Shown: piece after piece, positions 4,626 through 58,315 of the stretch
Layout: each line of letters begins with the position of its first letter
How positions within the stretch are numbered: position 1 is the stretch's first letter
Assembly: GCA_900315455.1 (NCBI GenBank)
Contig: OMZE01000019.1
Coordinates: 120,479-184,478, forward strand
DNA: 64,000 bases
DNA from: an uncultured Prevotellaceae bacterium
Lineage (GTDB): Bacteria; Bacteroidota; Bacteroidia; Bacteroidales; Bacteroidaceae
Direction: 5' to 3'
Made by a program: the position numbers and the translations under genes
The notes under the pieces: model-generated
Told to the model about the DNA's origin: nothing
Seen by the model: the letters and a program-made list of their open reading frames with translations, nothing else
Databases searched by the model: none

Positions 4626-5153
4626 TTATAGGTGCAGCGCCTCACGGATGCGCTTCACCGAGACGTTGATTTTCTCATAACTGTCGAGGAGGTTCACGTC
4701 GAGCGTGTGGTGTGCCTTGTTGTAGAAAGGCTCACGGTGCGCCAGTTGTGAGTTGATGAAGTCGAGGGTCTCCTCGGGAGTCTTGTCGCGCAGCAGGGGC
4801 CTCACGGTCTTCCCCATCTGCAGGTGTTTGTAGAGCACCTCGGGCGTGGCTTTCAGGTAGATGGTCTCACCCTGGGCGTTGAGATACTCCATATTGTCGA
4901 AGAAGCAGGGAGTGCCTCCACCGCAACTGATGACGACGTCTTCAAACTCCGCCACCTCGTGGAGCATGTTGCGCTCCACCTGTCGGAAACCCTCCTCTCC
5001 CCTCTCGGCGAAGAGTTGTGCCACCGTCTTCCGCATGCGCCCTTCTATATACCAGTCGAGGTCGTAGAAGGGCAACTTCAGGGTGCGCGCGAGGGCTTTC
5101 CCCACGGTGGTCTTCCCTGCTCCCATATATCCTATGATGATAATCCTCACCAT
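4626..5153 (-). CDS. aroK: Shikimate kinase
   Basis: 175 residues, normal for the family. It phosphorylates shikimate with ATP on the way to chorismate. Walker A is GYMGAGKTTVG at residues 8-18. The shikimate-binding Asp and Arg are in YDLDWYIEGR near 30-39 and FRQVE near 56-60. The glycine-rich CGGGTPCF is near 77-84, and the lid arginine is in VRPLLRDK near 117-124. It begins three bases after the topA stop and is followed by speA 31 bases on, consistent with one transcript. Confidence 0.97.
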   Translation of the reverse strand: MVRIIIIGYMGAGKTTVGKALARTLKLPFYDLDWYIEGRMRKTVAQLFAERGEEGFRQVERNMLHEVAEFEDVVISCGGGTPCFFDNMEYLNAQGETIYLKATPEVLYKHLQMGKTVRPLLRDKTPEETLDFINSQLAHREPFYNKAHHTLDVNLLDSYEKINVSVKRIREALHL

Positions 5154-5156
5154 GGG

Positions 5157-7508
5157 TCACTTCTTCTTTTTCGCGGTGGTGGCGTTGACCACCTTCATGC
5201 ACTCCTCGTAGGTGAGTTGCCCTGCCTTGGCGTGCATGGCTTTCGGCATGCGGTAGTTGGTGCCGTCGTAGCAGATATAGGGGCCATAGCGGCCGTTCAT
5301 CACCTCCATCTTCGGGTCTTCGTCAAACTGCTGCAGGTGTCGTTGTGCCTCCTGCTGGCGTTTCTCGCTGATGAGTTCCACGGCCCGGTCGAGGGTGATG
5401 GTGAGGGGATCTTCTCCCTTGGGCAGCGACACGTATTTCTTGTTGTGCAGGATATACGGTCCGAAGCGCCCGGTGCCTATCGACACGTCGCCGTCTTCAT
5501 ACTTTCCGAGGTTTCTCGGCAACTTGAACAGTTCGAGGGCCTCGTCGAGGGTGATGGTCTCCATGCTCTTGTCGGCGGGCAACTGTGCGAAGAGGGGTTT
5601 GTCCTTGTCGTCGGCGGTGCCCACCTGCACGATAGGACCGTAGCGTCCGATTTTCACGAAGACGGGGCGCCCTGTAGTGGGATGCATGCCCAGTTCGCGC
5701 TCTCCCGCCTTATGTTCGGCGCGGATGTTCATCGTGCGCTCCACCACGGGCTCGAAGTCCTTGTAGAACTTCTTGATCATTGCCGACCACTTGGCCTTTC
5801 CCTCGGCAATTTTGTCGAACTGCTTCTCCACATTGGCGGTGAAGCCATAGTCCATGATGTCGGGGAAATACTTCATCAGGAAGTCGTTCACCACGATGCC
5901 GATGTCGGAGGGCAGCAGTTTGCCCTTCTCGTTGCCCACGAGTTCTTTCTTCGTTGTGGTGCTCACCTTGTTGCCTTTCAGCGTGTCGATGGTATAGTCG
6001 CGGTTGACTCCCTTCTTGTCGCCCTTCTGCACATACTCGCGTTGCTGGATGGTGCTGATGGTGGGGGCGTAGGTGGAAGGACGGCCGATGCCCAGTTCCT
6101 CGAGTTTATGCACGAGGCTGGCCTCGGTGTAGCGGATGGGCCCCACAGTGAACCGCTCGGTGGCGGTGACGGTGCTGCGCTCCAGCGTGTCGCCTTGGTG
6201 AAGTGGGGGCAGGAGGTGCATCTGCTCGTCGTCGCGCGGCTCCTCGTCGTCGGTCGACTCACGGTAGGCTTTCAGGAAACCATCGAAGGTCACCACCTCT
6301 CCGGTGGCAACAAACATCTCATCGTTGTTCACACTGTCTTGTTTGTTGCCAGCGGGATGAATGAGGATGTTGACGGTGGTCTTCTCTATCTGTGCGTCGG
6401 CCATCTGCGAGGCGGCGGTGCGCTTCCATATCAGTTCGTAGAGACGGCGCTCCTGGGCATTGCCGTTGATTTCGGTATTGCTCATATAGGTGGGGCGGAT
6501 GGCCTCGTGGGCCTCCTGCGCACCCTTGGCGTTGGTCTTGTAATTGCGGGGTTTGCTATACTCCTTGCCATAGAGTTTCACTATCTCTTCCTTGCTGTCG
6601 TTGATGCAGAGCGAGGAGAGGTTCACCGAGTCGGTACGCATATAGGTGATGAGTCCGTTCTCGTAGAGGTGCTGTGCCACCATCATCGTCTGCGACACGC
6701 TGAAGCCGAGTTTGCGTGAGGCTTCCTGCTGCAGGGTGGAGGTGGTGAAGGGGGGTGCCGGCGTGCGGCGGAGGGGTTTCTTCGTCACGGCGTCTACGGT
6801 GAAGGTGGCATCCTTGCAGCGCTCGAGGAAGGCGAGGGCCATGTCGTGGCTCTTGAAGCGAGTTGGCAGTTCGGCGCGCACCACGGTCTTCTCGTCGCCA
6901 GGGAGGGTGAAGAGGGCGTTGATGCGGTAGTAAGGCTCACTTTCAAACGCCTGTATCTCGCGCTCGCGCTCCACGATGAGTCTCACGGCAACACTCTGCA
7001 CGCGCCCGGCGGAGAGGGCGGGCTTCACCTTGCGCCACAGCACGGGTGAGAGGCGGAAGCCGACGAGTCGGTCGAGCACGCGTCGTGCCTGCTGGGCGTT
7101 GACGAGGTTCATGTCGAGATGACGTGGATGCTCTATGGCATCGAGGATGGCGGGTTTGGTGATTTCGTGGAACACGATGCGGTTGGTCTTCTCCTCATCG
7201 AGTCCGAGCACCTCGCAGAGATGCCATGAGATGGCTTCTCCCTCGCGGTCTTCATCCGATGCGAGCCATATCTTCTTGGCTTTTCCTGCGTTGGTCTTCA
7301 ATTCGTTCACCAACTTCTCTTTTTCTTCGGGAATCTCATAGTCGGGTTCGAGGGTGTCGAGGTCGATGCTGATTTCTTTCTTCTTCAGGTCGCGGATATG
7401 TCCGTAACTCGACATCACCTTGTAGTCCTTACCAAGGAATTTCTCTATGGTCTTGGCCTTGGCGGGGCTCTCTACAATCACTAAATTGTCTTGCATATTC
7501 TCTGTCAA
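5157..7508 (-). CDS. topA: DNA topoisomerase I (type IA)
   Basis: 783 residues. It relaxes negative supercoils by single-strand passage. The TOPRIM domain at the N-terminus has LVIVESPAKAKTIEKFLG (residues 9-26) and the metal-binding DEDREGEA (about 85-92). The catalytic tyrosine is Y289 in GLITYMRTDSV. In place of the C-terminal four-cysteine zinc fingers of E. coli TopA there are three glycine/aromatic repeats (KIGRYGPIVQVG, GTGRFGPYILHNKKYVSLPK, NGRYGPYICYDG), the topoisomerase C-terminal repeat common in Bacteroidota and chlamydiae. The tail is basic (TTAKKKK). A second in-frame ATG at 7496 is a possible alternative start. An apparent 631-residue ORF on the opposite strand is its shadow. 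Confidence 0.98.
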   Translation of the reverse strand: MTENMQDNLVIVESPAKAKTIEKFLGKDYKVMSSYGHIRDLKKKEISIDLDTLEPDYEIPEEKEKLVNELKTNAGKAKKIWLASDEDREGEAISWHLCEVLGLDEEKTNRIVFHEITKPAILDAIEHPRHLDMNLVNAQQARRVLDRLVGFRLSPVLWRKVKPALSAGRVQSVAVRLIVEREREIQAFESEPYYRINALFTLPGDEKTVVRAELPTRFKSHDMALAFLERCKDATFTVDAVTKKPLRRTPAPPFTTSTLQQEASRKLGFSVSQTMMVAQHLYENGLITYMRTDSVNLSSLCINDSKEEIVKLYGKEYSKPRNYKTNAKGAQEAHEAIRPTYMSNTEINGNAQERRLYELIWKRTAASQMADAQIEKTTVNILIHPAGNKQDSVNNDEMFVATGEVVTFDGFLKAYRESTDDEEPRDDEQMHLLPPLHQGDTLERSTVTATERFTVGPIRYTEASLVHKLEELGIGRPSTYAPTISTIQQREYVQKGDKKGVNRDYTIDTLKGNKVSTTTKKELVGNEKGKLLPSDIGIVVNDFLMKYFPDIMDYGFTANVEKQFDKIAEGKAKWSAMIKKFYKDFEPVVERTMNIRAEHKAGERELGMHPTTGRPVFVKIGRYGPIVQVGTADDKDKPLFAQLPADKSMETITLDEALELFKLPRNLGKYEDGDVSIGTGRFGPYILHNKKYVSLPKGEDPLTITLDRAVELISEKRQQEAQRHLQQFDEDPKMEVMNGRYGPYICYDGTNYRMPKAMHAKAGQLTYEECMKVVNATTAKKKK

Positions 7509-7669
7509 ATTGTTATTTGATTCATGTTTTCACGCTGTCTAATATAGGAGATAAGGGGTTTTGGAGGGTAAATTCTACTGCGATGAAGTGGCTTGTATTT
7601 GTATACTTTTTCTTCTTCAACGCTCTCCCACATACGTCCTAATCTGTGACAGTTGGGTGATTTGAGCCG

Positions 7670-7677
7670 CAAAAGTA
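7670..7677 (-). promoter_or_regulatory. Possible -7 element upstream of topA
   Basis: On the minus strand this reads TACTTTTG, which fits TAnnTTTG. It would give a leader of about 155 bases to the topA start. No matching TTTG lies 19-21 bases further upstream, so it is a weak call. Confidence 0.3.
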
Positions 7678-7813
7678 AGCAAATCTTTAGTGATATACCT
7701 TATTATATTGATTATTTTTTGATTTTTTAAGAAATAGAGATTTAGATGTAACTATTCAGCACCCTCAACATGAATTTACTTAGGAGTGCCCTTTTCGGGG
7801 CAGAAATCATACT

Positions 7814-7843
7814 CATTTCAAATCAAATCATTTCAAATCAAAC
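7814..7843. repeat. Tandem 15-base repeat in the topA upstream gap
   Basis: CATTTCAAATCAAA occurs twice in tandem with a 15-base period, followed to about 7890 by AGATTTGGA/AGATTTGAA repeats. The whole gap 7509-8405 carries no convincing gene. The 60-codon ORF at 7770-7952 lies in low-complexity sequence and is not supported. Confidence 0.6.
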
Positions 7844-7993
7844 TCTCACAAATAAAAAAAGAGATTTGGAAGATTTGGATAGATTTGAAAGATTTCTCGC
7901 CGTAGGCGACTCTTTTTCTGATTCGCTGAAAATATTTACTAGGGGATACTGAGAGATACATTTAGGTTTGAGGTTTGAGGTTTGAACCCTTTG

Positions 7994-8385
7994 GTGTTTT
8001 AGAACGAACACGAATGAACCGAATTCACACGAATAAACAAATAACTATTCGTGTAGATTCGGGGAATTACCTCCCTTCGGTCAGTGGGCCTTCGACAAAT
8101 CTCGTGTTTGTTGTTCCTCCATGCCCTTGATGTGTTTTAGAACGAACACGAATGAACCGAATTCACACGAATGAACAAATAAATATTCGTGGAGATTCGG
8201 GGAATTACCTCCCTTCGGTCAGTGGGTCTTCGACAAATCTCGTGTTCGTTGTTCCTCCTGCCCTGATGTGTTTTTAGAACGAACACGAATGAACCGAATT
8301 CACACGAATGAACAAATATATATTCGTGTAGATTCGGGGTATTCGTGTTCGTTGTTGGTCTTCGACAAATCTCGTGTTCGTTGTT
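7994..8385. repeat. Three tandem ~137-bp repeat units
   Basis: Units start at 7994, 8132 and 8268 with GTGTTTT(T)AGAACGAACAC. Units 1 and 2 are nearly identical over their full length of 138 and 136 bases. Unit 3 lacks the middle part (ATTACCTCCCTTCGGTCAGT). Each unit contains GAACGAACACGAATGAACCG near one end and the reverse-complement-like CTCGTGTTCGTTGTT near the other, so each can fold on itself. No reading frame spans the units. Confidence 0.9.
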
Positions 8386-8405
8386 ATGGGGGTAGGAAAC
8401 TTCAG

Positions 8406-9155
8406 TTAATAGGTGGACGCCGAGAAATTCATGGTGAGTTTACGGTTGGTGCATTTGTATTTCCCAGCATACGTGGCTTGGTTGAAGGTACCTGTGAAAT
8501 AATATCCCGTCGCCACACCGTTCTTGTATTCCGTGAGCCGCATGTTGCCGTTGGCATCCACTGTTCCGGAGAGCCTCACATACACGTTCTCTCCGTTAAA
8601 CACGATATACTGTCCCGAGACTTGGTTGCCCTTTACATGGAGTTCCATGTCGATGTAATAGTTTTGCTTGTGCATGATGGCGCCATTGAGCCGATAAGTG
8701 CCGTTGGCCACCCTGTTTTTCACCACAGGGGGTGGGGGTGCTACGGGGGCGGGGGCTTGCTGCACGGCAGGTGCCGGTGGAGCGGCCTCTGCAACAGGAG
8801 TGGGTGCCGCTGGAGTCTCGGCAGCATCCTCGGCAACGGCTATGGTTGCGGCTTCCACATCTTCGGTAGCAGTACCTGTCGTTGGCGTAACAAGTTCTTG
8901 CTCGGGTTCCTCTTTGCTTCCCAACAACTTGTCGCCCCATAGAAACCATGCCAGCACACCGATAATCAGTGCCAGCAATAGGATGATGATGATCAGGAGC
9001 GTGGTATTGCTGCCGTTATTTTGAGGTTGGGGTTGAGGTTGAGGCTGGGGCTGGGGTTGGGGTGGCATAGGGGCAATGGGGTTGCCACAGTAAGGACAAA
9101 GCCGTGTGTTGTCTGCCACGAAATTACCGCATTTGTTGCATCTGATGGCGTTCAT
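8406..9155 (-). CDS. Zinc-ribbon, single-pass membrane protein with C-terminal beta domain
   Basis: 249 residues. The N-terminus is a cytoplasmic zinc ribbon with Cys6, Cys9, Cys20 and Cys23 (CNKCG and CPYCG). A Pro/Gln-repeat linker (PQPQPQ, about 31-45) is followed by one strong membrane helix at about 51-73. A long Ala/Pro/Val/Thr-rich extracytoplasmic spacer (about 82-148) leads to a ~100-residue beta-rich domain (VANGTYRLNGAIMHKQNYY onward, with GNQVSGQYIV and TGYYFTGTF). That last part looks like a small beta-barrel or lipocalin-like fold and reports no catalytic motif. A perfect promoter match lies just upstream (9182-9212) and the gene stands alone. Function unknown. Confidence 0.85.
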   Translation of the reverse strand: MNAIRCNKCGNFVADNTRLCPYCGNPIAPMPPQPQPQPQPQPQPQNNGSNTTLLIIIILLLALIIGVLAWFLWGDKLLGSKEEPEQELVTPTTGTATEDVEAATIAVAEDAAETPAAPTPVAEAAPPAPAVQQAPAPVAPPPPVVKNRVANGTYRLNGAIMHKQNYYIDMELHVKGNQVSGQYIVFNGENVYVRLSGTVDANGNMRLTEYKNGVATGYYFTGTFNQATYAGKYKCTNRKLTMNFSASTY

Positions 9156-9181
9156 AGTCTTTGAAGTTAAAATGGTTTCTG

Positions 9182-9212
9182 CAAAACTACAGTTTTTCTT
9201 CCATATAGCAAA
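9182..9212 (-). promoter_or_regulatory. Bacteroidota-type promoter of the zinc-ribbon gene
   Basis: Minus strand: -33 TTTG at 9209-9212, 19-base spacer, -7 TAGTTTTG at 9182-9189. The inferred transcription start is about 20 bases before the start codon at 9155. Confidence 0.75.
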
Positions 9213-9404
9213 GGATTGGGGAGAAAAAGGTGATTGTTCAGCGAATCATCATCCAAAGTGCCCTGACGGGCAGAAATGGGTCGCTGAAGGCTACTCAAAA
9301 TGAGGGGAGTGCGCTTTGCGCAGAAATGGTAAGAATGAGGAAAAGGTACGTTGTTATTCTTTATTACATTGTTTTTTATATCTTAGCATCGCGAAAATTT
9401 CGTG

Positions 9405-9431
9405 ACGAGATTTTCGTGACGAAAATCTCGT
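9405..9431. other. Perfect 12-bp stem-loop in a divergent intergenic region
   Basis: ACGAGATTTTCG pairs with CGAAAATCTCGT around TGA. A smaller palindrome CGAAAATTTCG precedes it at 9392-9402. Both neighbouring genes point away, so it terminates neither of them. It could be a leftover terminator or a repeat element. Confidence 0.65.
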
Positions 9432-9560
9432 GATAAAAGACATTTGAATTACTGTTTTATCAAATTACCTTGAATATGGAAAAGAAAAAGGGAATCAGAG
9501 GGAATTGTCCCCCTAATTCCTGGCTGAAACAGTTGATCTAAAGGCTTACGGCCTTCGACC

Positions 9561-9590
9561 AATTGAAAATTGAAGATTGAAATTGAAGAT
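9561..9590. repeat. Short dispersed repeat made of GATTGAA units (reverse copy)
   Basis: AATTGAAAATTGAAGATTGA then AATTGAAGAT, the reverse complement of the TTCAATC repeats near argB and gltD. It abuts the -33 element of the following promoter. Confidence 0.7.
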
Positions 9591-9593
9591 TTT

Positions 9594-9625
9594 TTTGCAT
9601 ATTAGTGATGAAATGCTTATTTTTG
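9594..9625 (+). promoter_or_regulatory. Bacteroidota-type promoter of the SLH/RHS protein gene
   Basis: -33 TTTG at 9594-9597, 20-base spacer, -7 TATTTTTG at 9618-9625. The leader is short, about 22-30 bases to the ATG at 9654 (or 9666). Confidence 0.75.
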
Positions 9626-9653
9626 CAAAATATAGTACCAAAGAAAAACTAAA

Positions 9654-12600
9654 ATGTTTCATGATATGACAAAACACGCATTTCTGTTGTTTTTAATCTG
9701 CTTCATGCTCGTTCCGTTCGGGATGAAGGCAGAAGAAGCATACGCTGTATTCAACGATGGCACACTCACGTTCTATTGTGATAATTTGAAAAACTCACGA
9801 GAAGGACATGTTTACAATGTCGAAGAGAGGTGTCCATGGTATAATAATGAGGATCCTTGGGAAATCACTAAAGTTATTTTTATGAGTTCTTTTTCCAAAG
9901 CAAGACCAACCGACACAAGCTGTTGGTTTGCAGGTATGAGATATGTTGAAACTATTGAAGGTATTGAATACCTCAATACATCTCAAGTAACAGACATGAG
10001 TCGTATGTTCTGCGACTGCCGAGGAATGACAGACCTTGATGTAAGTCATTTTGACACATCCAACGTGACAAATATGTATAGGATGTTTGATTGTTGCTTT
10101 AGCTTAACCTATCTTGACGTATCAAATTTTAATACATCAAAAGTGACGGACATGGGAGAGATGTTTATTGATTGCTATGGATTAACAAGTCTTGATGTGA
10201 CACATTTTGATACATCTAAAGTGACGAATATGATGATGATGTTCTCTAATTGCCATAATCTTACGAGCCTTGATGTGACACATTTCGACACTTCTAATGT
10301 AACAAATATGTGGGACATGTTTCATTTTTGTAGTAAACTTACTAGCCTTGATGTGACACATTTTAACACTTCAAAGGTCGAAAATATGAATTGTATGTTC
10401 CAACATTGTTTAGGACTTACTACCCTTGATTTGTCCCATTTCGACACATCAAATGTAAGGTTTATGACTAGTATATTTGATGAGTGTGCCAATCTTGAAA
10501 CCATTTATTGTAGTGACAGATGGACCGTTGATTATTTGGTTTATGATTTGCCTCTTTTCAATGGTTGTTACAACCTCAAGGGTGAAAAAGGTACGACCTA
10601 CGACTCCAACCATATCGGCAAAGAATACGCCCATATAGACGGAGGGCCAACAAGCCCCGGCTATCTTACCTATAAGCCATATTACGACTGCACTTTCTCT
10701 GATGTCCCAAAGACCAATGCCTATTATGATGCCACATGCTATCTCTATAGTCTCGGTGTACTCAGTGGCACTGACAACAACGGAAAGATGGAGGTAGGAG
10801 CAAATTTGACACGTGCCCACTTGGCGAAAATCGCTTTCCGTGGAGTATATTCTATCAAAGGCCGCGAGGTTCCCGAAGCGGTTCCCTCCGACAATTATCC
10901 CGTTATATATAACGACCTCACCGACAAGACGAAATATTATTATCAGGCAGCCCGCGCGCTGCTTTACTTGGAATATGGTGACGGCGTGACACCCTTCGAC
11001 CGCAACCGCCTGGAGTTTGCCCCCGAAGAGACCATCGCCCGTGTGCATGTGCTCAAAGTGCTGATGGAGACCTTCAACATACAGCCCGACATGGAGGGCA
11101 CCGACAATCCCTTCCCCAATGATGCCAATGTGGCTGCCATCGCCCAAAGAGACCCAAGGATGATGGGATATATCCGCAGGGCTGCCAGCCTCGGCATCAT
11201 TACCACTGCCAACCAGGAGTTCCGACCTTATGCCTATTGTCTGCGCGGTGAGGCCTTCGTCATGCTCTACCGCATCATGAAAGCGGTAGACAACGGAATA
11301 GTCACTGACCCCAACCCCCAGCCAGCCGACTACTTCGAACCCCTCAACACCACGATGAAAACCATCGCATTGGGCGTGGGGATGTCGATGGGCAACTTCC
11401 ATCACTATTCCAAGTCGAGTTTTACGCTCAATGGAACGATGCCGCTCGCTTTCGAGCATTCCTACAACTCCTACAACACTACTCTACCCGAAGTTTTTTA
11501 TGGTGCAGGAAAAGAGAATGGGTCGGAGAATGACACATATCATCCCTTAGGTGAAGGATGGAGTCATACTTATCATACGTTTATAACCATCGTGGGCGAA
11601 TTGACCAAAAACAACGCAAGAGTCATAGTACATTGGGGCGGTGGTAAAATTGATGTATATAAGTCGGATGGCTCCAAATTGGTGCCAGAGTCATATGGAG
11701 TCTATGATGAGATGTCATTAGAAAACAAAGAGGTTGTTATCAGGTCAAAGACACAGAAGGAATACCATTTCTCCGGTTTGGGTGGCTCTGGCGGAACAGG
11801 CCCCACGGCACTATATTTGACTATGGTCAAGGACCGTAATGACAATACGATAACGATAAATTATGAAGTTGGCATAAATGGACATCAGCGAATCAAGTAC
11901 GTCAGCGACGGTAACCGCTCTCTTACTTTTGGCTATCTCGCTAACACCAATCTCCTGGAAAGCGTAAAAGACCCATTAGGGCGCACTGTGTCTTTTAGTT
12001 ATGACTATAATGAAAGAACAAATCTATATATGCTATCTTCCTTTACAGATGCAAAAGGGCAGACCACATCATATTTCTATGGTGATAAATCGAAAATCAG
12101 CACATCCAAACTACTTACAAAAATACTATTACCCAAGGGCAACTATATCGAAAACGAATATGACAACAATCAAAGGTTGAAGAAGACAATAAATGGTATA
12201 AATGGTAATCCTATTACACAAACCCAAATATCTGTCATGTCCAATTTTGAGAACTCTGTCTCCACTTCTTCGAGAGTAGAGGTGGATAGAGATGGGCACT
12301 CTTCTTCGTTCGAATATACTTTCAATGAAAACAATGCCATGACCCATATGTCGGGAGATGGAGGAATATACACAAATTGTTCCTTCGGCGATGTAAAACA
12401 TCCTCAATTACCCACAACTATGGAAACAAACGATTTGGATGTCAGTGGAGTGAGTTATGATGCAAAGGGGAATGTGACGAAAATCACTATTATAGGAGAT
12501 GGTACAAAGAGCACTTCAATGACTTACGATGAGATGAATAATGTGACAAGTGTAACCGACCCTATGGGAAACAAAACCACATATTCATATGACAGTAAAG

Positions 12601-53684: not shown

Positions 53685-53906
53685 ATGCGGAACCTGTTAT
53701 ACATAGTAGTCACGACAGTGATACTCACTGCCTGTGTAGGTGGTGGGAAGGAGCGTGCTGTGCTTGATACAGCACAGCGTATTATCAACGACCGCCCCGA
53801 TTCCGCCCTTGCCATGCTCGACTCTCTGGAACCGTCATCCCATGATTTTTCAACAGAAAACCTCCGTCGATGGCAACTCCTGAGGCCTTATGTCCTGTCA
53901 TTTTAA
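53685..53906 (+). pseudogene. Truncated TPR lipoprotein (N-terminal fragment)
   Basis: 73 codons. It starts with a lipoprotein signal MRNLLYIVVTTVILTAC and continues with ERAVLDTAQRIINDRPDSAL, then MLDSLEPSSHDFSTEN. This matches, position by position, the start of the complete 584-residue TPR-HTH protein encoded at 56561-58315 on the other strand (ERALQNVREIINEYPDSALR, then LLDSMEIYSDDFSEST). After about codon 66 the resemblance stops and the frame ends. So this is the 5' stub of a paralogue, cut where the AT-rich island begins. It could also be expressed as a short lipoprotein. Confidence 0.75.
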
Positions 53907-54220: not shown

Positions 54221-54907
54221 CTATATTTTTCTCAGAACCATCTCTGGTATATATTGGTTCTTCTGCTCCATATCACCAAGTCCCAGTCTTGGGTACACCA
54301 TACCACCTATGCCTGGAATAACTTCACTGCCAATCCGTTCGTCATCGATAGCAAAAGCATAAAAATGAAATTTTCGTTTTATTTCTTCAGGGAATTCGTG
54401 CATCAAATTCGGAACACCATCTTTATACATAACAGGAGCCATGATAGCAATCCGCTCAGGTTTTACTTTTCCTATCAGTCTGGTAAGTTGTGTCTTAATA
54501 ACACAAGATGTACTAATGATAGATTTTACTACCACTAACAGGCTGCAATTGTCAATCTTTTCTTCGTATGCTTTCTCAATAGGAGAGATTTCCACTTTAG
54601 AACCGTCCTCATTGACATGAATTATTTCACGTGAACTCCAATAGATTGATTTCTTCAATTCCCCTTTGCCAAATCCTGATTCCACGCCATCTGCCAACCA
54701 GTCTGCATCTTCCGATGCACACACTAACATTGTCTGGTCTGCATCTGAATCTATATACTCAGAAGCCAGGATTTTTCCAAGTTCTACTCCCAGCAAACGG
54801 AAGGCCTCACGGTATTGTTCGACACTAGTCCCCTTGTCTGCCAATGTCTCAAGAGAAGCCTTGATAAGAGATTCATCACCGTACTGTAGATTTTCAAAAA
54901 TCCTCAT
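54221..54907 (-). CDS. Uracil-phosphoribosyltransferase-like protein with degenerate PRPP loop
   Basis: 228 residues. The C-terminus has a UPRT-style uracil-loop pattern: VIPGIGGMVYPRLGLGD (about 196-212) compared with the YIVPGLGDAGDRLFGT form of true UPRTs. The middle has LLVVVKSIISTSCV (about 123-136) in the place of the PRPP loop (hydrophobic strand, D-D/P-x-x-x-T-G-x-T/S), but the acidic residue is Lys and the glycine is Ser. The strand before IAIMAPVMYKDG fits the fold. So a type-I PRTase fold is likely, while ordinary uracil salvage is doubtful. GGAGGG precedes the start. It follows the nuclease-like gene by 15 bases in the same leftward unit, suggesting a nucleotide-sensing or nucleotide-modifying partner. 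Confidence 0.7.
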   Translation of the reverse strand: MRIFENLQYGDESLIKASLETLADKGTSVEQYREAFRLLGVELGKILASEYIDSDADQTMLVCASEDADWLADGVESGFGKGELKKSIYWSSREIIHVNEDGSKVEISPIEKAYEEKIDNCSLLVVVKSIISTSCVIKTQLTRLIGKVKPERIAIMAPVMYKDGVPNLMHEFPEEIKRKFHFYAFAIDDERIGSEVIPGIGGMVYPRLGLGDMEQKNQYIPEMVLRKI

Positions 54908-54922
54908 AAGCCCTCCTTCTTT

Positions 54923-55765
54923 TTATAATATAGCCACCAATTCACGTCTTGTGGTGGGCTTTTTGTTAATTATTTCCTGCTCTTTGCCCTCAGGCCATGG
55001 GCAACTTCCTTTAAAGTTTCCCATCTGCCAATAGAACATTCTTCCAATGACAGAATAGCTTAACCCTTCAATGCCATCTAAAATCTCTCGGCATGATTCA
55101 CTTAAAGTTTCATCTGAAAAAATGGCCAGATTAAAATGTTTTGTTTCTTCTGCACGAGAAACAATATCAGATAATCTAACCCGATGTTTGCTGCCACAAG
55201 CTTTCCATACCCCAAGGAATACCATCGCATTATTCACCAACTCATCTACTGTCGACTCATTTCCCATAACTGAGATTATCCGAAGAGCATCTTGAAAAGC
55301 ATCGCTGATAATAATAAGTCCATTCAAGTCTTCTAGGTATGGAAAATACTCCACCGTTGTATAAGCTTTTATACTATCTGGAATTTTCTCACCAACTAGA
55401 CTACTTGCGGTGGAATAAATCAATTTCAATTCAAACTGCTCATTACGTTCATGACAGTCCTTTATCTGGTTTTCAAAGTCAGAAGTAATAGTTCTATCTG
55501 ATGATTTGGTATTCCATGTCAGTTTCTGGGTATTCTTCAGTTGATGATAAACATTTTTGTCTGGATGGGCTATAAGCAAATCATCAACGAATGTATCCTC
55601 CAGTTGTGTTTGCAATGCCACACTATCAAGTGTTGCCTTATAATGAGCTATACAAGACACTATCTGGAATACTGCATAGAAATCCTCATACAGCCCTCCT
55701 TTTGCGTTAGCCTCGCCACCTTTATGTTTGTTTGCAAGATACGACTTGTCCTCTTCATTTCTCAT
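54923..55765 (-). CDS. DUF4297/Cap4-like PD-(D/E)xK nuclease-type protein
   Basis: 280 residues. The N-terminus has a glycine-rich lead and helix, KGGEANAKGGLYEDFYAVFQ (about 15-34), then acidic residues in EDTFVDDLLIAH (56-67) and the core VYHQLKN (72-78). An acidic strand followed by Q-x-K is the pattern of the Cap4/DUF4297-type restriction-like nuclease domain used as effector in anti-phage systems. The rest (about 90-280) is unassigned and alpha-rich and may be a sensor or partner-binding part. A strong GGAGGGGG lies before the start, unusual for this genome. Start overlaps the end of the DUF1653-like frame by 11 bases. Confidence 0.65.
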   Translation of the reverse strand: MRNEEDKSYLANKHKGGEANAKGGLYEDFYAVFQIVSCIAHYKATLDSVALQTQLEDTFVDDLLIAHPDKNVYHQLKNTQKLTWNTKSSDRTITSDFENQIKDCHERNEQFELKLIYSTASSLVGEKIPDSIKAYTTVEYFPYLEDLNGLIIISDAFQDALRIISVMGNESTVDELVNNAMVFLGVWKACGSKHRVRLSDIVSRAEETKHFNLAIFSDETLSESCREILDGIEGLSYSVIGRMFYWQMGNFKGSCPWPEGKEQEIINKKPTTRRELVAIL

Positions 55766-55985
55766 ATGCCCCCTCCTTTGTTTTTTCCGTAAATCGTTTT
55801 ATTGTCTGACAATTTCTCTCAACAAAACCATCAAATATATCTTTCGGACGTACCCAAACCTTATGGTCTCCATACAAAGCTTGGAACACTACAACAGGAA
55901 CTAAAAATTCACCCACCTGACCGACAGCTAGAATTTTATACTTCCCGCCATTTAAATGGCGATAATATCATATCGCATCTGTCAT
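55755..55985 (-). pseudogene. DUF1653-like small protein gene with in-frame TGA at codon 6
   Basis: Translation from the ATG at 55985 gives MTDAI, a TGA, then YYRHLNGGKYKILAV, FQALYGDHKVWVRPKDIFDG and on to a stop at 55755 (76 codons). The part after the TGA has the whole DUF1653 signature (YRHxxGGxYxVL...ALYGDxxxWVRPxxMF...RF). A promoter sits 30 bases upstream and the 3' end overlaps the nuclease gene by 11 bases, so this is the first gene of the unit. No ATG, GTG or TTG lies between the TGA and the core of the domain. Either a point nonsense mutation, a sequence error, or a non-standard start. Confidence 0.7.
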
Positions 55986-56014: not shown

Positions 56015-56047
56015 CAAAACTACACTTTTTTTCTCTTTTTTTCGAAA
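56015..56047 (-). promoter_or_regulatory. Promoter of the DUF1653/nuclease/PRTase-like unit
   Basis: Minus strand: -7 TAGTTTTG at 56015-56022. The -33 region is only TTTC at 56044-56047 with a 21-base spacer. The leader to the ATG at 55985 is about 23 bases. Confidence 0.5.
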
Positions 56048-56560: not shown

Positions 56561-58315
56561 CTACATTCTCATAAGGTTCTTCTTCAGAGAGGAGGCTGAT
56601 TTCTGACCGAACAATTTAATGTTGACTTTGGTTTTTGTGTTGGTGACACTTTGGGTTGACTTGCACAACAACACGCTGATCTGACCATTGGAGAAGTTCA
56701 GTCGGCATAACATACAAATCTGTTTCTCAAGATTTGTCAAGTCATCATTCATTAGGATTCTTTCATAGAAGGTAGGGAGGCTCTTGGCATACATCCCCAT
56801 GAAACGTTGCCAATCGCCATCCGTTGGCAATTGAATTTCGCGTTTCCCCGTGGCCTTTTCTTGAAATGAGTGTACGATGTCGCATCCCATAATCGCAGCC
56901 TCTTTATCATGGTCTGGAAGTTCCTCAAACTTTTTCTTGTATCCATCAATCTGTCCGAGGAGTTTGGAAACCTCCTCCTGTTTCCTCTGTATAGCCTGTT
57001 CTTTATTGCTTTCTAACACCCGCAACTCTTGTATTATCTGTTCATATTTGCTCACAGCGGTTAGATAGTCGGTGTTCATCTGACCTAATTCCTTTTCCTT
57101 CGATAATCTCAACCGCTTGTATCTCTGGTAGAATAAAAAGAAGAACAAGACAGCGAGGAATAATATAAAGGAAATGACTAATTTCATCCGCCACTTGGTC
57201 TGCTCGGTCTCCAACGCTTTCAAGTTGGCAATTTTCTCCTGCCGGCTATAATTGTATAGTGAATGGGTTGCTATCATTGCATCCGACTGGTCGTCCATCT
57301 GAATACTATCAAGAGCCAGCTCGCACAAAGTGGAATATTTCATTATCGAGTCAATATTCCTTCTCTCATGATACACAGTGTGAAGACCTTTATAGGCATC
57401 ATAATTCCTGTTGCGGTGGAAACCATAAAGTTTCCTGAAGAAATACTCTGCCGAGTCAACTTCAAGTATTCCCATGAAATACAGGCCCTTACAATAATAG
57501 TATCTTTCCTTCCCTGCTGAGATGTTGCCCTCGTTGTCGAAAAGCCCAGAATTTTCTTCATATTCTTGCATCATTTGATGGGCGCGTTGCCATTGCCCGT
57601 CTTGTAGCAAAAGAATAATTGCTGTAGGATATACGGACGCAGCCTCTTCTGGATACCCATAAACTGTATATAATCGGTGACATTCCTCTGTCAGTCTAAA
57701 GCAATTGGCAGTATCATTTAAGTGGTAATATGAAGGTATCTGCAACTCCTTCCCCTTAATGAACGAAAACGTGTCATGGTCTCTTAGGGCGAAATGGCTA
57801 TAATGCCCCCAACTGTCAATCGCCTCCTCGGGAAGATGTTGGGCATTAAAAATCTTTGCAATCTGTCCATAGACACTACAAAGCGTATAAAAATCACAAT
57901 CTGTTGCCATGGTATCAGCACACTCTACTGCATCTTGATAACATCGGAGAGCCATCGGTGCTTCGCCCATATCATTATAAGCACGGCCTAACAGATAGTA
58001 GGCTGTCATCCGCTCGTTGGATGTGCCATGGTTGTCGAAATAGTCAACAATTAACTTTTGTAAACTATCTGAATGGAATTCAATATAGCATTTGTTTTGA
58101 GCTGACAACTGGAGCATCAACCAATGCATCCTTGTACTTTCGGAGAAATCATCCGAATAAATCTCCATTGAATCCAACAACCTCAAGGCAGAGTCCGGAT
58201 ACTCATTGATTATTTCTCTCACGTTTTGAAGTGCCCGCTCATGGCTGCGCTGGCCAGCACAGGCAAATAGAACAAATAAAACAAAAATGGGAAATAATAA
58301 CCTAACAGCTCTCAT
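56561..58315 (-). CDS. TPR lipoprotein-like membrane sensor with cytoplasmic HTH domain
   Basis: 584 residues. The N-terminus is hydrophobic and ends in a lipobox-like FVLFVLFACAGQ. Helical TPR-like repeats occupy about 25-370 (AYYLLGRAYNDMGEAPMALR; RCYQDAVECADTMA). One membrane helix is near 380-400 (LVISFILFLAVLFFFLFY), then a coiled coil (about 405-470) and a C-terminal helix-turn-helix resembling LuxR/GerE output (LTNLEKQICMLCRLNFSNGQ; VLLCKSTQSVTNTKTKVN). This layout is a known Bacteroidales one-component regulator type. It stands divergent to the small secreted gene and RHS locus at 58.6-64 kb, which it may control. A lipidated cysteine plus a later membrane helix is unusual and the lipobox may be a plain signal anchor. 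Confidence 0.85.
   Translation of the reverse strand: MRAVRLLFPIFVLFVLFACAGQRSHERALQNVREIINEYPDSALRLLDSMEIYSDDFSESTRMHWLMLQLSAQNKCYIEFHSDSLQKLIVDYFDNHGTSNERMTAYYLLGRAYNDMGEAPMALRCYQDAVECADTMATDCDFYTLCSVYGQIAKIFNAQHLPEEAIDSWGHYSHFALRDHDTFSFIKGKELQIPSYYHLNDTANCFRLTEECHRLYTVYGYPEEAASVYPTAIILLLQDGQWQRAHQMMQEYEENSGLFDNEGNISAGKERYYYCKGLYFMGILEVDSAEYFFRKLYGFHRNRNYDAYKGLHTVYHERRNIDSIMKYSTLCELALDSIQMDDQSDAMIATHSLYNYSRQEKIANLKALETEQTKWRMKLVISFILFLAVLFFFLFYQRYKRLRLSKEKELGQMNTDYLTAVSKYEQIIQELRVLESNKEQAIQRKQEEVSKLLGQIDGYKKKFEELPDHDKEAAIMGCDIVHSFQEKATGKREIQLPTDGDWQRFMGMYAKSLPTFYERILMNDDLTNLEKQICMLCRLNFSNGQISVLLCKSTQSVTNTKTKVNIKLFGQKSASSLKKNLMRM

Follow-up and report, generated by a model that had tools for sequence, protein, structure and literature searches.

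Many bacterial immune systems use a nuclease as effector, and it is in the switch that the systems differ. In uracil phosphoribosyltransferases (UPRTs), loops of the active site contact pyrophosphate, PRPP and uracil.

Nucleases with a Cap4-type domain (DUF4297, PF14130) occur with different partners: HerA is found with DUF4297, and Avs3 contains a cap4 domain (PMC11291478). PRTase-fold proteins are likewise paired with another protein in defence, namely in the type III-A retron and in PRTase-DprA (PMC12548924, PMC9122126). The locus analysed here lies in a 64,000-nucleotide stretch of DNA (the whole stretch is referred to as the window) and couples the gene of a putative Cap4-like nuclease to that of a UPRT relative.

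Gene organization of the locus

The locus had been described in the original prediction as a leftward set of three genes in an AT-rich island. Its AT-richness, its minus-strand orientation and its tight gene spacing were found as described, but the first of the three genes is broken. The island extends over approximately 53.5-59 kb with a GC content of 0.31-0.44, as compared with 0.47-0.59 in the left and 0.46-0.67 in the right flank, and its gene cluster consists of only three frames:

54221-54907, minus strand: gene of the UPRT-like protein (228 aa), hereafter called the partner; profile match to four ordinary UPRTs
54923-55765, minus strand: gene of a putative Cap4-like PD-(D/E)xK nuclease (280 aa), assigned from a shuffle-controlled profile score and a predicted structure
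55755-55985, minus strand: DUF1653 gene, its frame broken by a stop at codon 6; the remainder matches PF07866

The nuclease-like gene and the partner gene are both intact and spaced by 15 bases, while the start of the nuclease gene lies within the end of the DUF1653 frame (11-base overlap). A search for repeats around the island did not reveal clear insertion ends. In a genome of the same genus (L046; 82% for glutamine synthetase) a gene that looks transporter-like by eye is located downstream in place of the island. The spot is thus variable, as judged from this one genome, which did not reveal a clean empty site.

Two further observations concern the surroundings. A short frame at 53685-53906 resembles by eye the N-terminus of the lipoprotein/TPR-type protein encoded at 56561-58315 on the island's other side (run 'ERA......I.....DSAL..LDS'), as a truncated copy would. 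The window's own genome (G000) is marked as 100% complete with 8% contamination and contains two glutamine synthetase matches, so that it may be a mixture.

Distribution and inheritance of the gene pair

The nuclease-PRTase pair named in the original prediction recurred in the neighbourhood search: both genes are present intact and in the same order in nine loci from two phyla (window, L002, L003, L005, L006, L008, L016, L017 and L029). Altogether the partner was detected in 14 loci, with an intact nuclease alongside in nine, a broken one in one and none in four. A 15-base gap separates the two genes in the window and in L002, L003, L005 and L006; in L008, L016, L017 and L029 they overlap by four bases. 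The pair spans Bacteroidales, two cyanobacterial plasmids and one phage-like contig, with identities falling to about 29% for the nuclease and about 39% for the partner.

A scan that used the 228-aa protein as query against genome contigs yielded five loci in Bacteroidales MAGs (L002-L006), in which the partner is 79-82% identical; the labels of all but L004 give a source, these being reindeer, yak omasum, sheep rumen or a RUG number. The order DUF1653, nuclease, partner is the same in all five, and the nuclease of L004 lacks its catalytic half (frame-breaking deletion). All three genes are also present in L008, from another Bacteroidales family (G121), with identities of 32% for the nuclease and 47% for the partner. 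Nuclease and partner genes were further found on the 319-kb plasmid pA of Chroococcidiopsis sp. CCNUC1 (L016), which is typed as conjugative, on a 10-kb plasmid of Geminocystis sp. NIES-3709 (L017), and on a phage-like contig that carries an integrase, a tail protein and a HigBA-type pair (L029). Four contigs resembling the latter (L026, L027, L028 and L030) contain a lone partner gene, before which only a short piece of the nuclease end is left; a tRNA-Tyr precedes the partner in L026 and L027. L027, L028 and L030 share sequence with L029 that is 100% identical, and L029 could be an assembly chimera. A 45-base stretch is located after the partner in L029 (5534-5578) and L027 (5704-5748) and before it, near the end of tRNA-Tyr, in L026 (839-882); it may represent an attachment-site repeat.

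The identities of the two proteins co-vary (Spearman 0.87 over 28 non-independent pairs of eight loci). Between L002 and L003, dN and dS are 0.021 and 0.26 for the partner, and 0.057 and 0.46 for the nuclease, and in both genes synonymous changes exceed amino-acid changes wherever they are unsaturated. The lone partners of L026 and L027 differ by three nucleotides only, all of which change an amino acid; purifying selection is therefore not visible in the solo copies.

The pair is rare. Counting the window's own genome, real copies were present in two of 393 genomes of the order for each of the two proteins, in one of 395 genomes of a phylum sample for the partner, and in one of 375 genomes of a class sample for the nuclease. 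The partner was found in 3/40 genomes of the genus of L003 (three loci already known), and the nuclease in 1/150 of the genus of L004 (the broken copy). Short, partial nuclease matches in G255, G383 and G1013 were left out of these counts, as were UPRT-like matches in G128, G136, G574 and G526, which are ordinary UPRTs with a normal loop. Of the loci of the dropped nuclease matches, L009 and L010 look unrelated upon reading. Scans of viral contigs with the window nuclease and with A4 gave no relative; the L029 nuclease and A6 recovered the contig of L029 only, and A5 recovered only five loci already found. In phage records, each protein gave a single match at chance level (E values of 0.2 and 0.09). 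The gene pair is mobile and has passed between distant bacteria.

The DUF1653 frame and expression signals

The DUF1653 frame of the window starts with ATG at 55985 and is interrupted by TGA at codon 6 (55968-55970). An arginine codon occupies this position in all five close relatives (L002-L006), and the subsequent residues continue in register; the part of the frame after the stop matches PF07866 with an E value of 1.2e-15. Among the loci examined, DUF1653 was seen in Bacteroidales only: in L016 and L017, a single small frame upstream of the pair was compared with PF07866 and gave no match, and inspection of L029 by eye did not reveal a DUF1653 gene upstream of the pair. The view of DUF1653 as a working third part of the system is thus not supported. 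Judged by the sequences, DUF1653 is an optional accessory that is disabled in the window copy, and the window unit consists of the pair plus this broken accessory.

Unusually strong GGAGGG ribosome sites and a promoter just upstream had also been predicted. GGAGG-type sites precede both the nuclease and the partner gene in the window, but only the second is shared with other copies, and with close ones alone: the strong site before the nuclease is confined to the window among nine copies compared, whereas the one before the partner gene is kept in six of six close copies (window and L002-L006) and absent in L008, L016, L017 and L029. As for the promoter, sigma-70-like motifs were not above chance (14, as compared with 10.0 in shuffled sequences, sd 3.5), but an alignment placed a TAnnTTTG box, which we take to be the Bacteroidota -7 consensus, upstream of DUF1653 in 6/6 close copies. 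The two conserved signals are:

54911-54918, minus strand: strong ribosome site (AAGGAGGG) before the partner gene; GGAGG in 6/6 close and 0/4 distant copies
56015-56022, minus strand: TAnnTTTG box, likely a -7 promoter element; same place in 6/6 close copies

Genomic neighbourhoods

Neighbouring proteins were scanned with PADLOC at L005 (six proteins), L004 (four), L006 (five) and on the L016 plasmid (seven). These four loci were chosen because their neighbours looked defence-like by eye, and the window, L002, L003, L008 and L017 were left out; all four neighbourhoods inspected point to defence, in agreement with the proposal of a candidate defence or conflict system. In L005, a KwaA frame starts 27 bases past the pair and is followed by KwaB (E values of 7.3e-65 and 2.5e-104). 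L006 has as neighbours two YhcG nucleases, a WYL protein and a DUF2971 protein, and L004 an N6-methylase and a PDC-S27 protein. In the window, no defence neighbour was recognised by eye. Downstream of the Kiwa genes, L005 encodes a GHKL ATPase, a PDC-M60B-like protein and a PtuB-like HNH protein; with the Kiwa genes included, the stretch covers 5044-11013 and is possibly a further, unlisted defence operon.

In L016 the order of genes is DpdE/DrmD-like helicase, DrmMI-like methylase, DUF2513, Rpn-nuclease, pair, DruE-like helicase, so that the pair is flanked by the helicase and methylase genes on one side and by the DruE-like helicase on the other. This operon matches the gene order of ARMADA type I that is reported for many archaea and cyanobacteria (PMC12458937). 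Calling it ARMADA-like is our own reading, drawn from the DISARM, Dpd and Druantia models that were matched in the PADLOC scan. The DUF2513 gene, the Rpn-family nuclease gene and a small gene beside the pair (L016, 3411-4854) may be further passengers of the operon. Near the end of the pA record, at 16671-18870 of L043, genes for a PD-(D/E)XK nuclease, a ThiF/E1-like protein and a JAB/Mov34 protein occur together; once the circle is closed, they lie near the ARMADA-like operon.

On this basis a defence role of the pair appears likely. As the pair travels between distant bacteria and adjoins defence genes in several of them, it probably is an anti-virus module. A housekeeping or DNA-repair pair without any part in conflict would hardly be expected to show such a patchy distribution and such mobile settings, and is considered very improbable. 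The mobile settings themselves, i.e., the 10-kb plasmid of L017, the 319-kb conjugative-typed plasmid of L016 and the phage-like contig of L029 with its HigBA-type pair, would also suit a toxin-antitoxin module by which a plasmid or phage secures its own inheritance, with any anti-phage effect being secondary. The position inside an ARMADA-like operon and beside Kiwa fits defence better, which makes addiction an unlikely main function, even though the two ideas overlap.

The nuclease-like protein

None of the Pfam and NCBIfam models reached its cut-off for either protein of the pair, and PADLOC 2.0.0 gave no match to the window proteins at E values up to 10. PF14130, the model of the Cap4-type nuclease domain, did not match any of five diverse nuclease members in a Pfam scan (E up to 10), nor was a match to it detected in the window's own genome. 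An alignment of seven members of the nuclease family nevertheless revealed residues that are invariant in all seven, namely N12 K13, G16 G17, K22 G23, Y26 E27 and Q54, as well as F59 V60 D61 D62 L63, Q75, K77, W84, D96 F97 and Q100. The residues of the putative active site are:

55685-55687, minus strand: E27 of the invariant Y26-E27, in the first core helix; 7/7 invariant, model helix 21-41
55580-55585, minus strand: D61-D62 on the acidic strand; 7/7 invariant, aligned with ED/DD of Cap4, model strand 58-66
55535-55543, minus strand: Q75-x-K77; 7/7 invariant, aligned with QxK of Cap4, model strand 71-77

For comparison, proteins were collected with PF14130. Of seven matches, six were aligned (L036 was left out, as no frame passed the filter, and L039 and L040 score below the curated cut-off), and Y-Q, D and Q-x-K are common to all six. 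Profile alignment (hhalign) of the full-length nuclease with these proteins gave a probability of 1.6 (E 0.031) with Y-E, D62 and Q-x-K in register; the N-terminal parts only, cut after the full-length result had been seen, gave 8.9 (E 0.0037) in the same register. Y26, D62, Q75 and K77 are thus both invariant and aligned with the Cap4 motif columns, and the Q of Cap4 is replaced by E27. With the two best PF14130 members alone, a different register was obtained (probability 0.3). The score of the N-terminal parts against the Cap4_nuclease proteins was 23.9 and was reached by none of 100 column shuffles (mean 10.9, maximum 18.6).

The best of five AlphaFold models, calculated from an alignment of six sequences, had a mean pLDDT of 78.3 and a pTM of 0.71; the other four ranged from 47 to 54. 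Its elements (helix 21-41, strands 50-55, 58-66 and 71-77, helix 93-106, strand 111-117) form an alpha-beta-beta-beta-alpha-beta core as in PD-(D/E)xK nucleases, with D61/D62 and QxK on adjacent strands. Confidence is low for residues 1-23 and for residues 55-60, and strand 58-66, which carries D61-D62, adjoins the latter stretch. Towards the C-terminus, the model has strand 195-197, helices 198-207 and 223-230, and strands 235-256, an order of elements that by itself looks winged-helix-like. No solved structure was matched by profiles A1, A2 and A6. A match to PF18735 (HEPN; E 0.11) was discarded as it is below the cut-off and was obtained with one of five members only.

The assignment of the second protein as nuclease-like is thus upheld by a Cap4-type register that scores above all shuffles and by a predicted structure of PD-(D/E)xK-like topology. 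Since the hhalign probabilities are low, it is only the shuffle control and the model that lift the putative relation to Cap4; nuclease activity itself is inferred.

The UPRT-like partner

Alignment of the partner with four ordinary Bacteroidota UPRTs by hhalign gave a probability of 96.2 (E 2.6e-9) over residues 29-204; the score of 64.9 compares with a maximum of 22.7 among 100 column shuffles. The best match to a solved structure was the Sulfolobus UPRT 1vst (E 0.0012). Homology to PF14681 extends over the domain, with scores below the curated Pfam and NCBIfam cut-offs, and the DPM(I/L)ATG and RAG motifs are replaced by other invariant residues. The description of the third protein as a UPRT homologue with an altered active loop is therefore supported. 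The replaced segments are:

54701-54709, minus strand: D67-A-D69 in place of R-A-G of UPRT; hhalign register, invariant columns
54491-54529, minus strand: VKSIISTSCVIKT (residues 127-139) in place of the UPRT PRPP loop DPM(I/L)ATG; hhalign register
54281-54316, minus strand: PGIGGMVYPRLG (residues 198-209) in place of PGLGDAGD of UPRT; alignment and hhalign register

In terms of motifs, R-A-G has become D67-x-D69, DPM(I/L)ATG has become S129-I-I-x-x-x-C135, and PGLGD has become PGxGG. Within loop 127-139, V127, K128, S129, I130, I131, C135, V136, K138 and T139 are invariant in five diverse members. As these members come from two phyla, the replacements indicate that the partner has been re-purposed and has not decayed. 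Judging from the exchanged loops, it has probably lost PRPP chemistry. Nucleotide or PRPP sensing had been suggested for this protein, a reading that the data do not support; as both PRPP-contact loops are replaced, PRPP itself is an unlikely ligand.

The invariant residues could alternatively mark a new working site. E66, D67 and D69, K128 and S129, C135, and K138 and T139 are retained in all five diverse members as would be expected of an enzyme producing or modifying a nucleotide, and with Cap4-type nucleases as relatives of its neighbour, the product might activate the nuclease according to the logic of CBASS. The residues by which UPRT holds PRPP are lost, however (R to D, D to S, G to C), and we regard an active enzyme as unlikely compared with a regulatory subunit.

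A model for control of the nuclease

Our working model is a mobile anti-phage (or anti-element) module in which a Cap4-related nuclease is restrained by a UPRT-derived subunit, and we would give it an even chance of being correct. The nuclease gene comes first and the partner gene second in a tightly coupled arrangement. The partner, which in the Bacteroidales copies would be supplied in excess from its stronger ribosome site, would bind the nuclease and hold it off. Infection would then alter a ligand in the remodelled pocket of the partner, or displace the partner, upon which the nuclease would cut DNA. The partner would act as a regulatory subunit without PRPP chemistry. The computations establish the gene pair and its conservation, the two homologies, the altered loops and the defence neighbours at four loci; from these we infer binding of the two proteins, the direction of control and the trigger.

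The direction of control was deduced from gene losses and ribosome sites. The partner is found without an intact nuclease in five of 14 loci (L004, L026, L027, L028 and L030) and an intact nuclease without the partner in none of nine, counts that are biased, since it was the UPRT-like protein that served as query in finding most of the loci. That the partner outlives the nuclease and an intact nuclease was not seen alone is the pattern of a dangerous enzyme and its restrainer. The asymmetry may reflect perhaps two or three independent events, L026-L030 representing few of them. Against the idea of excess partner stands the lack of the strong ribosome site in the four distant copies. Taken together, restraint of the nuclease by the partner could be right or wrong in about equal measure. 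Where a phage-like element carries the partner alone, the protein would serve in counter-defence.

The roles might also be reversed, with the UPRT-like protein as toxic effector and the nuclease-like protein, with its C-terminal domain, as sensor or antitoxin. Effectors of the PRTase type have been reported together with DprA or retrons (PMC9122126, PMC12548924), and the L029 partner weakly matches the PADLOC model PRTase_III-A (E 0.0043), with no match for the L029 nuclease. The window copy, by comparison, gives no PADLOC match even at E up to 10, the catalytic residues of the nuclease are invariant, and, unlike a toxin gene, the UPRT-like gene persists at loci with a broken or missing nuclease, a pattern biased by the choice of query. 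An exchange of roles is thus improbable, somewhat more so than the active-enzyme and addiction alternatives.

More tentatively than restraint as such, we suggest that a UPRT was converted into a switch of immunity, in which the rebuilt PRPP pocket would sense a new ligand, or a shift in the nucleotide pool brought about by phage, and control the Cap4-like nuclease without a cyclic-nucleotide synthase. If so, there would be a direct link between immunity and the chemistry of pyrimidine salvage, the ligand of the remodelled pocket would become a testable question, and the switch would form a defence class of its own that occurs in Kiwa and ARMADA islands, on plasmids and on phage-like elements of Bacteroidota and Cyanobacteriota. 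The pair is short (about 1.5 kb) and present in two named cyanobacterial strains, and is thus easily tested.

Comparison with known systems

Among the literature matches listed, as far as their excerpts go, no description of a nuclease-UPRT pair was recognised. A figure legend in PMC13092281 names a validated system that includes a PRTase, and overlap with the pair is possible. As an anti-virus module, the pair is probably undescribed.

With Cap4-type nucleases (DUF4297, PF14130), the nuclease of the pair appears to share the register Y-Q/E ... D ... QxK and, in the model, a PD-(D/E)xK-like core. It differs from them in that it is not matched by PF14130, has E instead of Q after Y, has no other domain recognised in its C-terminal half, and is accompanied by a UPRT relative. 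With Upp (PF14681), the partner is co-linear over residues 29-204 and retains PGxG, but it has D-x-D for RAG, S-I-I-x-x-x-C for DPM(I/L)ATG and G for D after PGLG, and scores far below the family cut-offs. As compared with the type III-A retron and PRTase-DprA, the PRTase-fold protein of the pair is of UPRT-type ancestry and has a nuclease as its partner; a reverse transcriptase or DprA gene adjoining the pair was not noticed by eye. ARMADA type I is related to the pair by position: in L016 the pair lies inside the ARMADA-like operon, whereas elsewhere it occurs without ARMADA. Since it stands alone there, the pair is best regarded as a passenger of, or add-on to, ARMADA and not as a part of it.
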